DNA of 24,114 nt, taken from positions 1-24,114 of IMG/VR virus record IMGVR_UViG_3300051212_000451; one strand, written 5' to 3'. The translations under genes were made by a program, and so were the position numbers. The stretch comes from a virus. Positions 2,433-16,547 of this stretch are shown piece after piece; position 1 is the first letter of the stretch, and every line of letters starts with the position of its first letter. Below the pieces are notes generated by a model, which saw only the letters and a list, made by a program, of their open reading frames with translations, searched no databases and was not told where the DNA came from.

Positions 2433-2665
2433 GCTTCTTCATCCCATTCTAAATAATATTGGTCTTCAGGTTTCAAATCATAAAATAGATTAAATCTACC
2501 TTTGATATAGTTATCATTGGACATTTCTGCAAATCTATAATCTGCATACATCTGACCTTCATCTAAATTAGATTGAACCCAATCTTCAACTAACTGTTCG
2601 CCAATCTCTTGATAGATTGCATCTATAACCATTTGGTTTTCATTTTCTAGAAATGATTCAGCCAT
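2429..2665 (-). CDS. Acidic hypothetical protein, 78 aa
   Basis: Overlaps the end of the preceding 259-aa gene by 8 bases. It is acidic and aromatic-rich, with a predicted helical first half (ENQMVIDAIYQEIGEQLVEDW) and a C-terminal tyrosine-rich part. No signal peptide, membrane helix or metal motif is visible. No family is recognised. Confidence 0.7.
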   Translation of the reverse strand: MAESFLENENQMVIDAIYQEIGEQLVEDWVQSNLDEGQMYADYRFAEMSNDNYIKGRFNLFYDLKPEDQYYLEWDEEA

Positions 2666-3437
2666 TTATTTGCTCCATTCTGTAATCAGGGACATGCTCG
2701 GAATCCAAGTATATCTTATGGGTCTGACATTCTTTGACACAATCAAGGTCTGCCTCCCCCATATAATTACAAGATGAACATATCTCACCACAATCATTCT
2801 CACAGTATTCCATTGTGTTTATTTCATCACAATCTCTGCATTTATTATCGTATTCTTCTAGTTCTGTTACATTGCCACGAAGAATCTCATATTCCCCACC
2901 CCAACCTGTTTCTTCTTCAAATGATAAAGTAAGTAAGGAGTTAGGAATAAGTAATGATAGTTTAGTTAGAATAGTTACAGCAGGAGACCATGCAGTATTA
3001 TACTTATATACAAGCCATTGGTCCTCGCCTTTAGATGTGTGTTCTAGTAATTCTGTTTCAGGCCATTCGTCACCGTCACGAACAGCAACATCCCATTTGG
3101 TTCCCCAATTAGATGTATTCCAGTTATACCAATCCTTTTGAGTTTTGGCATGTGCAATTTCTTTAGCAAACCATTCAGGGTCTTGTGGGTCAATTCCTAG
3201 ACGACTAGGTTGCTGAACATATTCTTCCATGGTAATACCCTCTTCAAGTGGAGAGTGGATATTCCAGAATGCAAAGACAGGGGCGGAATAATGAGTTTCA
3301 GATACTTCCATCTCCATAGTCTTAGAATTCCAAGAATCATGTAATACAGTAAATGGCTTATTTAGCCTATCTTTGATATAATCGATTTCTGACTTTGGAC
3401 CTTGTATGGTCAAAGTGTTATATACCCAGTTTGGCAT
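2658..3437 (-). CDS. DUF1281/YubB-like protein with C-terminal cysteine-rich domain, 259 aa
   Basis: The first residues (MPNWVYNTLTIQG) match the opening of DUF1281/YubB ferredoxin-like proteins, common on plasmids and phages and of unknown biochemical role. The middle part contains NWGTKWD and EETGWGGEYE, also typical of that family. From about residue 200 there is a cysteine-rich tail with CxxC pairs (CRDCDE, CENDCGEICSSC, CVKEC) that could hold one or two zincs. A TTG 10 codons upstream lies on the promoter -10, so the ATG behind GAAAGGA is chosen. It is the first gene of the unit that runs to 1198. Confidence 0.75.
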   Translation of the reverse strand: MPNWVYNTLTIQGPKSEIDYIKDRLNKPFTVLHDSWNSKTMEMEVSETHYSAPVFAFWNIHSPLEEGITMEEYVQQPSRLGIDPQDPEWFAKEIAHAKTQKDWYNWNTSNWGTKWDVAVRDGDEWPETELLEHTSKGEDQWLVYKYNTAWSPAVTILTKLSLLIPNSLLTLSFEEETGWGGEYEILRGNVTELEEYDNKCRDCDEINTMEYCENDCGEICSSCNYMGEADLDCVKECQTHKIYLDSEHVPDYRMEQING

Positions 3438-3466
3438 TTTATATCCTTTCGTTTGGTTGGAAACCA

Positions 3467-3488
3467 ATTATATAACGGACCACTGACA
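3467..3488 (-). promoter_or_regulatory. Leftward promoter P2 (for 3437-1198)
   Basis: TGTCAG (3483-3488), 10 bp, TATAAT (3467-3472) on the minus strand. The box is extended to TGTCAGTGG. The leader is about 25 bases and includes AACGAAAGGA. Confidence 0.75.
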
Positions 3489-14181: not shown

Positions 14182-14481
14182 TTATACTTCACTTTCTAAG
14201 TCAACAGTTTCTTCAACTATTTTTCGGGCGGGAGGAACTTGGGTTATAAACCCATATGGATTAGATTTGGTCTCAGGATGATTACCTAAGAACTGCAGAT
14301 ACTCTGGTAGATTAGTAATTTCAGCCAATAAGACCATAAGATCATAACATCTGGTGTGGGCAGTCTGATTTACTGTCCAACATGAATAATTCTCATCTAC
14401 ATTTGGACATACAGCTAGTATCTCTTTTAGTCTAAATACTACCATATGAGCAAATTCCATCTGATCCTGGGTATATGCCAT
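14182..14481 (-). CDS. Hypothetical protein, 99 aa
   Basis: Overlaps the previous stop by one base (TAATG). Mostly helical (TQDQMEFAHMVVFRLKEILAVC), with three cysteines scattered in mid-protein, followed by a proline-rich C-terminus. No family is recognised. It is the last gene of the lysin operon, ending before the bidirectional terminator. Confidence 0.7.
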   Translation of the reverse strand: MAYTQDQMEFAHMVVFRLKEILAVCPNVDENYSCWTVNQTAHTRCYDLMVLLAEITNLPEYLQFLGNHPETKSNPYGFITQVPPARKIVEETVDLESEV

Positions 14482-14720
14482 TACTCTTCTCCTAGTTGTA
14501 CATCTTTAGGTGTATATGCAGGTTCTGGGCCTAATAGATAGCCTTGTTCATGATATCCCACCATTTTTGCTGTATCTTCGCTTCCCGCCACCTTGTCGGC
14601 AATTAGCGAAAGTAGATCATAAATTCTGTGAAGCATGATATATGTAACCATTGGCAGATTGTCTTCAATTGACCCTGCTTCTTTTACTATTGCTCCATCA
14701 GGTAATTGTTCTTCATTCAT
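14481..14720 (-). CDS. Hypothetical protein, 79 aa
   Basis: Overlaps the preceding gene by 8 bases. An acidic N-terminus is followed by one amphipathic helix (LPMVTYIMLHRIYDLLSLIADKVAG), not long enough to be a clear membrane span, and a proline/glycine tail (LLGPEPAYTPKD). It could be a small virion or chaperone component. No family known to me. Confidence 0.7.
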   Translation of the reverse strand: MNEEQLPDGAIVKEAGSIEDNLPMVTYIMLHRIYDLLSLIADKVAGSEDTAKMVGYHEQGYLLGPEPAYTPKDVQLGEE

Positions 14721-14916
14721 TTATAGCTCCATCTGTAAGGGGATATATTTGTGGAGTTCTCCACTCATTGATAATATTAATATTGTTATATTCGAAAATG
14801 GGTTCTTCTAGTTCCGCCGCACTGAAATTTTCACTTTTTTCGGCACTTGCACTATTTGTCTCAATTTTTAACCCTTGACCACATGCACATGAACCACCGC
14901 AGCATCCATTACTCAT
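14713..14916 (-). CDS. Protein with cysteine-rich N-terminus, 67 aa
   Basis: The ATG at 14916 overlaps the stop of the 31-aa cysteine-rich gene (ATGA); an in-frame ATG four codons upstream lies inside that gene. Residues 5-12 (CCGGSCAC) hold four cysteines, a metallothionein-like knot; the rest is a plain acidic chain ending in TPQIYPLTDG. With the preceding gene it forms a cysteine-rich pair. Metal binding is likely, role unknown. Confidence 0.65.
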   Translation of the reverse strand: MSNGCCGGSCACGQGLKIETNSASAEKSENFSAAELEEPIFEYNNINIINEWRTPQIYPLTDGAINE

Positions 14917-15008
14917 CTGTGCCCACATCCTTCCGATTTGCTACAGCAGCATGTGCAATTATTTTGCGGACAACCGCAAGAACATTGAAATGTCTCATTT
15001 GTTTCCAT
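14913..15008 (-). CDS. Metallothionein-like peptide, 31 aa
   Basis: Eight of 31 residues are cysteine (positions 9, 11, 13, 18, 20, 21, 22, 28), with a histidine at 30, in CSCGC and CTCCC runs typical of metal-thiolate clusters. AAAGGA lies about 12 bases before the ATG. It starts two bases after the stop of the 233-aa gene and is coupled by ATGA to the next cysteine-rich gene. It may bind zinc, copper or cadmium. It could also be a structural cysteine-rich peptide. Confidence 0.65.
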   Translation of the reverse strand: METNETFQCSCGCPQNNCTCCCSKSEGCGHR

Positions 15009-15010
15009 AA

Positions 15011-15712
15011 TTAGTTGTATTCCTTTCTTCTCCAGAATTTATTTTTATACCATCCAATAATATGCTTTAATGATTCGCTTCTTGCCAGTTTAGCCTCTTT
15101 CAATAAATCTGTATTTCTTTCAAGTACCCAAGGCTCTGATTTTATTGGGATAATCTGAGCAATAGGAGTGCCAGCCTTTATGATACCCTCAAACCCCATC
15201 TGAAGAAGAAATGGCAATTTTCCACCGTTCATAGGATAGTTTGCATCAACCACTCCAGAAAGTGTCCTAAAAGGCAGGTCGTCCCTGTTTAAAGGGTGTG
15301 TTATTAATAAGCTATACCCATCTTCTACCTTAAGAATTTGTTTTGTACTCCATGAAAAGTGATTGTCATGATATCCTTGAGGTATAGGTAGAGTTGGCAC
15401 CATGCCTTTATCTCTTTCAATTATAAAATCTGTTTCTTGATAATCAAAATCAAACCAATTCCAGCTTATTTTTGGTCCATGCGGCGTTTGTTCTACTAAA
15501 AAATCTACTGGAGCTGGAATATAATATCCAGTCAAAAATGCATCCATAAATGGCGCACAGCTTTTAACTGTTATGGTAGAAGGAGCTATGCTCAACTTAC
15601 CACCCGAAAATTTTTCTATCTTTTTAAACCAGTCTGGCATTACGTTCTTCATATAGCCTATAGGTTCGAACACAGGGTGGTACAAATCGTATTGTAGCTT
15701 TTTAGGCTTCAT
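15011..15712 (-). CDS. Conserved phage protein, possibly DUF6065-like, 233 aa
   Basis: Features a conserved SC-x8-TGYYIPAP-x-D segment (about residues 51-70), then YSLLITHPLNRDDLPFRTL (about 133-151) and FEGIIKAGTPIAQIIPI (about 174-190). I associate this with DUF6065-type proteins of phages and bacteria, whose function is not established. The last segment is like the dUTPase-type strand before its catalytic tail, but the dUTPase motifs are absent. Overlaps the preceding gene by 11 bases. Confidence 0.65.
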   Translation of the reverse strand: MKPKKLQYDLYHPVFEPIGYMKNVMPDWFKKIEKFSGGKLSIAPSTITVKSCAPFMDAFLTGYYIPAPVDFLVEQTPHGPKISWNWFDFDYQETDFIIERDKGMVPTLPIPQGYHDNHFSWSTKQILKVEDGYSLLITHPLNRDDLPFRTLSGVVDANYPMNGGKLPFLLQMGFEGIIKAGTPIAQIIPIKSEPWVLERNTDLLKEAKLARSESLKHIIGWYKNKFWRRKEYN

Positions 15713-15932: not shown

Positions 15933-16484
15933 CTAATTTGGGAACTTTAATAAAAATTCCTTATATCGGTCTCCACCTAATGAAGACCAGGATGACCAAT
16001 CGGTTCCGCCTTTGGTCATATAATACGTTATCTCTGCATTTATTACGGGATCAAACAATAGTATGTTTGACTTTAATTCAAATTTTTCTTTACGATCAAT
16101 GCCGAGTTTACCCAACATATTAATCTGAAAAATTCCGTAGGAACTGTCTCCAGTTTTCCTGTTACCATTGTAAGCCATAGGTCTTGAATTAGATTCTGAC
16201 TTAGCAATAGCCCAAGCCTGTTTAAGGGCTTTTCCTTCAAAGCCAACAGCTGATAAGAGCTCTTTTAGTTCTCCGTCTGTCAGCATCTCAGAAGGCTTGT
16301 ATACAGTATTGCTGTACTTCTCTAAGGTTTCTTTCTTTAGTTGTACTGTTGATTTAGGTGTTTCCACCTGCAAAGCTTGAGTTACTGTTGGACCAGGCTG
16401 GACAGTAAATAAAAATAATGTTATCATTCCTATATACGACCAGTTATGAGCAACATCGCTCAAACGTTGTTTGATATTCTCCAT
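15933..16484 (-). CDS. Membrane-anchored lysozyme-like transglycosylase, 183 aa
   Basis: A hydrophobic segment at residues about 15-30 (SYIGMITLFLFTVQP) is a signal or anchor. From about 68 follows a soluble-lytic-transglycosylase/lysozyme-like domain: WAIAKSESNSRP with probable catalytic Glu97, then GDSSYGIFQINML (about 112-124) and a late W-x2-W. It would cleave peptidoglycan in the cell wall. The ATG at 16484 has AGAGGAGG 8 bases upstream; longer starts fall inside the promoter. First gene of the lysin operon. A virion-associated role is also possible. Confidence 0.85.
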   Translation of the reverse strand: MENIKQRLSDVAHNWSYIGMITLFLFTVQPGPTVTQALQVETPKSTVQLKKETLEKYSNTVYKPSEMLTDGELKELLSAVGFEGKALKQAWAIAKSESNSRPMAYNGNRKTGDSSYGIFQINMLGKLGIDRKEKFELKSNILLFDPVINAEITYYMTKGGTDWSSWSSLGGDRYKEFLLKFPN

Positions 16485-16517
16485 TGGCATTTCCTCCTCT
16501 AGAGATAACGAACTACT

Positions 16518-16547
16518 ATAATAACATTGTTTGGCAGCAGGTGTCAA
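16518..16547 (-). promoter_or_regulatory. Leftward sigma-A promoter of the lysin operon
   Basis: A perfect TTGACA (16542-16547), 18 bp, TATTAT (16518-16523) on the minus strand. It is unlike the TGTCRG promoters of the left arm. It fixes the lysin start at 16484 because upstream starts would lie in the -35. Confidence 0.75.

Follow-up and report, generated by a model that had tools for sequence, protein, structure and literature searches.

Bacterial metallothioneins of the SmtA/BmtA type (Pfam PF02069) are small, cysteine-rich proteins of ~55 aa that contain histidine and CxC motifs, and MymT is a small, cysteine-rich metallothionein of mycobacteria that has been proposed to bind Cu(I). Here, we consider a 31-aa peptide (the 31-mer) encoded within a 24,114-nt IMG/VR virus record, the whole of which was analyzed and is referred to as the window. 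The 31-mer resembles SmtA/BmtA in being small and cysteine-rich with histidine and CxC motifs, and it resembles MymT in being small, cysteine-rich, and actinobacterial. It differs from SmtA/BmtA in length (31 versus ~55 aa) and in the spacing of its residues, CxCxCx4CxCCCx5CxH. No match to PF02069 was detected in 16 family members at E values up to 10, nor in the window peptide, and searches of NCBIfam and Pfam revealed no match between the family and MymT. MymT is not known to have a CCC run or a C-terminal GCxHR.

Two further precedents are relevant. Polycysteine leader ORFs have been reported in mycobacteria (Canestrari et al. 2020, cited in PMC9094748). They share with the 31-mer the character of short ORFs with consecutive Cys codons; unlike them, the 31-mer has conserved non-Cys residues, internal starts, and copies fused to longer proteins. 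The whiB gene of freshwater actinophages offers a different likeness, as a gene of host type carried, like that of the 31-mer, by phages of acI (Nanopelagicales phages, PMC10202952). The non-subscription literature searched yielded no report of a phage or viral metallothionein, or of one in Planktophila.

The gene for the 31-mer (METNETFQCSCGCPQNNCTCCCSKSEGCGHR) occupies 14913..15008 on the minus strand, with its start at 15008, and is supported by an ORF, by homologues, and by pN/pS. The sequence-only reading of this DNA had described a 31-aa peptide with eight cysteines and a terminal histidine; the minus-strand ORF bears out the eight cysteines, and the histidine is present, but it is next to last in a peptide that ends His-Arg. 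The reported ATGA junction with a 67-aa ORF is also there, as are the four cysteines within the first twelve residues of that protein: the 31-mer gene ends ..CACAGATGAG.., and the start codon of the 67-aa gene lies on its stop. The 67-aa phage protein (MSNGCCGGSCACGQG...; 14713..14916, minus strand) has a CxCGxCxCG-type head and a W-x-x-P-x-(I/V)-(F/Y)-P-x-T-D-G tail. Next in the operon is a 79-aa conserved phage protein (phrog_12271, no assigned function; 14481..14720, minus strand), the gene of which overlaps the end of the 67-aa gene, followed by a 99-aa conserved phage protein, also with no assigned function (14182..14481, minus strand). Directly upstream of the 31-mer lies the gene for a 233-aa conserved phage protein (PHROG 7084, no assigned function; 15011..15712, minus strand), the junction of which was the marker used for finding relatives. 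Homologues of this protein with 31–35% identity are encoded by tailed viruses of haloarchaea (HRTV, HSTV, HF1 group), and none turned up among the bacterial phage records of the searched collection; the haloarchaeal homologue was set aside as a guide to the locus, its surrounding annotation describing a different gene neighborhood.

Cysteine content alone is a poor guide to whether such an ORF is a gene. An open stretch this dense in cysteine (at least eight in 31 residues) appeared in 0.5% of simulated windows, and the window itself has two more, both antisense to other ORFs, so the count is insufficient as proof; it is the conserved family that raises the 31-mer above chance. That family was not apparent from conventional searches. 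The 31-mer and 67-aa peptides gave no tblastn match among 50,697 phage records, the window 31-mer had no match in PHROG, and the family found no supporting match among Pfam, NCBIfam, and PDB profiles. A Pfam C2H2_ASCIZ match (E 0.011, nine residues) fell below the cut-off and was rejected. Scanning IMG/VR with a loose cysteine pattern, CxCGCx4CxCCC, returned mostly low-complexity or antisense frames, yet small ORFs of identical spacing surfaced among them.

A stricter pattern, C-x-C-x-C-x4-C-x-C-C-C-x4-G-C-x-H, recovered seven other viral contigs from IMG/VR, all genuine members (6 distinct sequences), and 19 contigs from 84,980 prokaryote species. Fourteen of the latter belong to Nanopelagicales/Actinomycetota; two of these are labeled Clavibacter, but the sequences matched are those found in genomes assigned to the same order as G001. 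The remainder (4 Xanthomonas, 1 Flavonifractor) were dismissed as chance GC-rich frames without the fixed Gly or start context. The reversed pattern had 0 matches in 296 Nanopelagicales genomes. When the His requirement was dropped and Gly and Ser were fixed, only two low-complexity frames were gained and all real matches retained His, which is thus a real feature of the family and not a product of the pattern. The resulting signature, C-x-C-G-C-x4-C-x-C-C-C-S-x3-G-C-x-H, is found in seven other viral contigs and ~14 Nanopelagicales (acI) genomes, within a start-to-stop ORF or as an in-frame domain. A profile built from 16 members matched 15 of the 296 Nanopelagicales genomes at 58–64 bits. 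The next match scored 21 bits, and those of <22 bits were rejected as weak; the peptide is therefore rare even in its hosts. Across the class, 296 evenly drawn genomes gave one strong match only.

All eight cysteines and the histidine are kept in the 16 aligned members, and Gly, Ser, and Arg are nearly fixed. Across all codons of 21 distinct core sequences, pN/pS is 0.13; with the Cys/His pattern excluded, it is 0.29, and almost none of the codons then counted had been fixed by the search pattern. The alignment of window and host copies starts at the N terminus (METNETFQC.. in the window, MSESNETFQC.. in L157). One host copy detected by the profile only, that of L201, has its first Cys replaced by Ser and lacks a clear start; it may be decaying. 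Judged by its homologues and codon constraint, the 31-mer is a real, conserved microprotein of tiny freshwater actinobacteria that is also present in their phages.

In the host lineage, the gene resides in the chromosome as a single copy and in recurring neighborhoods of Nanopelagicales contigs. In one subgroup, it lies between an AhpE-type peroxiredoxin (preceded by DUF3052 and a long ORF, presumably pyruvate dehydrogenase E1) and a DUF4287/DUF1801 protein. In a second, it is flanked by DUF1801 and DUF4287 proteins, and in a third, by a GNAT acetyltransferase region on one side and an MFS transporter on the other. Many of the starts, which are internal, are preceded by SD-like sequences. No metal-resistance or metal-regulator gene was recognized adjoining host or phage copies.

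The window phage can be placed through its relatives. whiB is reported to be an actinophage marker and is found in isolated Nanopelagicales phages (PMC10202952; PMC6802176); matches to WhiB exceed the Pfam cut-off in G306, a close relative of the window, and in three contigs that carry the peptide. Many genes are common to the window and the peptide-bearing G006, G301, and G007, at 36–82% identity, and the other part of the window is closest to G306, which does not carry the peptide. By gene content, then, the window belongs to an actinophage lineage, and from its relatives we infer a Nanopelagicales host.

Several other features of this lineage deserve mention. Seven perfect DnaA-box sequences (TTATCCACA) occur in the window, at 476-496, 6548, 8872, 11513, 11566, and 16898, where 0.27 would be expected. 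They are apparently mostly intergenic, and two fall in a 30-nt stretch identical to a region without annotation in Streptomyces phages, Faust among them. G006, G007, G300, and G301 have a cluster of three DnaA boxes ~350–500 nt from the microprotein gene. The boxes could be origins, sites of DnaA titration, or a shared operator. Between 4686 and 8494, several early minus-strand ORFs carry an upstream extension, T/NNERKxM, which corresponds to a repeated AACGAAAGG-like ribosome-binding sequence, and their true starts are probably the inner ATG. A 269-aa protein (2658-3467), 53% identical to its counterpart in G006, has a C-terminal Cys-rich stretch (CRDCDEINTMEYCENDCGEICSSCNYMGEADLDC) that is probably a zinc-binding module.

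Phage copies of the 31-mer occupy at least four contexts. In L065 and L145, it follows a ribonucleotide reductase that is 90% identical to that of the window; in L048 and L107, its ORF overlaps the end of a ~84-aa protein; L128 and L143 encode a protein of that kind with the 31-mer fused to its end; and in L141, it stands alone. In the window, it takes the form of a ~97-nt insertion (approximate extent 14917..15010, minus strand) between the 233-aa gene and the 67-aa (CxCG) gene. It is absent at this junction from all relatives readable there, in which the 233-aa gene leads directly to the CxCG gene. In the relatives, the CxCG start follows a ribosome-binding region with the sequence AAAGGAATACAACTA or one very similar; in the window, this sequence lies ahead of the 31-mer. 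A different small-ORF insertion (MNKYSVGFNDDGILVVEQ...) is present one junction further along this operon in the relative L022 (5931-6057), so the operon seems to accept insertions of micro-genes.

The single chromosomal gene of the hosts, the scattered contexts in phages, and an insertion absent from relatives together favor a host gene captured by phages, an origin that the sequence-only reading had not recognized. A tree built from 75 nt places the window copy among host copies and the other phage copies in separate groups, with weak support; its nearest nucleotide copies are also in hosts (up to 79% identity, against 61–71% for phages). These observations suggest that capture probably occurred more than once, although a peptide of this length cannot yield a dependable tree, so that how often and in which direction transfer took place is uncertain.

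As for function, a very small protein with conserved Cys in CxC/CC motifs has the hallmarks of the metallothionein class, and the 31-mer has 8 Cys in 31 aa. The sequence-only reading had proposed such a function and had regarded cysteines not conserved in homologues as fatal to it; the cysteines and histidine are conserved, and the metallothionein-like reading is strengthened. Eight thiolates and an imidazole are fixed within 22 residues, other positions drift, and no recognized domain is present, which makes a minimal metallothionein the most economical explanation. We regard it as moderately probable that the 31-mer is a small metal/thiol-chemistry protein of Ca. Nanopelagicales, acquired by phages and most likely metallothionein-like. 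It would have entered the genomes of Nanopelagicales phages, apparently more than once, and would fold around a cluster of soft metal ions with the eight Cys and one His as ligands. The metals held would be Cu(I) or Zn(II), with Cd(II) less likely, and the metal would be buffered or sequestered in the infected cell, as by a minimal metallothionein; the phage might benefit through buffering, supply, or denial of metal. In the window phage, insertion between the ribosome-binding site and the CxCG start codon would allow the 31-mer to use that site and to hand ribosomes to the 67-aa gene via ATGA coupling. The ORF, its family, the conservation of Cys/His and of other positions, the host chromosomal copies, the scattered phage positions, and the insertion are observations, whereas the direction of transfer, translation, metal binding, and role in infection are inferred.

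The main rival, which we nonetheless consider unlikely, would make the peptide a module for redox chemistry or zinc and not a store of metal, its cysteines serving thiol/disulfide chemistry or a single structural zinc site through which a partner protein is bound. The AhpE-type peroxiredoxin beside the gene would suit such a role, but this neighbor is found in one host subgroup and is not common to the others. Likewise, the 31-mer forms the C-terminal domain of a larger protein in L128 and L143, as an interaction module might, whereas eight Cys and a His in 22 residues exceed what one zinc site needs.

It is improbable that the gene is a cysteine-responsive leader ORF, in which the CCC run would stall ribosomes at low cysteine and so tune downstream genes. 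The run itself, the actinobacterial lineage, the coupling to a downstream gene, and the cysteine-rich regulatory sORFs of mycobacteria to which PMC9094748 refers all invite the idea. A polycysteine leader would be leaderless or 5′-terminal, with free non-Cys residues and a fixed regulated gene; the 31-mer has internal starts, often with SD-like sequences, purifying selection on its non-Cys codons, and a fixed spacing to Gly, Ser, His, and Arg. Its downstream genes vary by context, and the copy in L128 and L143, being the end of a longer protein, could not act as a leader. The constraint outside Cys, the changing downstream genes, and the fusions thus disfavor this possibility.

The sequence-only reading had also joined the 31-mer and the 67-aa protein as a metallothionein pair. 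Were they to act together, the 31-mer might pass metal to the CxCG head, and the ATGA overlap in the window phage and the clustered Cys of both proteins could be read in this way. However, the 67-aa family is present in all relatives of the operon and in every one seen is without the 31-mer, and the other phages and the hosts that have the 31-mer have no member of the 67-aa family beside it; at no other locus seen, whether in phage relatives, other phages, or hosts, do the two stand together. As each gene occurs elsewhere without the other, the pair is unsupported, and we think it quite improbable. The 17 distinct sequences of the 67-aa family each have exactly four Cys, a CxCGxCxCG-type head, and a W..P.(I/V)(F/Y)P.TDG tail. 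On this evidence, the 67-aa protein is an older phage gene product, unrelated to the 31-mer and not a metallothionein, perhaps with a single predicted metal site; an AlphaFold model of it (pLDDT 53) was unusable. A suggested supply of metal to a lysin fares no better. A lysozyme-like protein (Pfam SLT_3; 15933..16547, minus strand) is encoded upstream in the same direction, without specific link to the microprotein, and elsewhere the peptide adjoins a ribonucleotide reductase or is fused to an unrelated protein in phages, or resides in a lysin-free host chromosome. The restriction of the 31-mer to the window contig at this junction, and the Cys-rich chance frames of the window, might suggest a frame open by chance or an assembly artefact, but either is scarcely credible given its homologues, >20 distinct sequences, constrained codons, and host chromosomal copies.

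Returning to the metallothionein-like reading, we tentatively advance a fuller version as possible rather than probable: the phages of Nanopelagicales may have repeatedly captured a minimal metallothionein restricted to that lineage, found among sequenced prokaryotes essentially in a subset of it, and may have placed it at different sites or fused it to phage proteins; its role during infection would be the control of metal, probably copper or zinc. Few freshwater bacteria are as abundant as the acI actinobacteria, the genomes of which are streamlined. If the proposal is true, their phages would carry a very small metal-handling protein as an auxiliary gene. Such genes are probably missed routinely, because they are shorter than the cut-off of most annotation. 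The narrow Cys/His signature of the family may also provide a host marker for uncultured actinophages.
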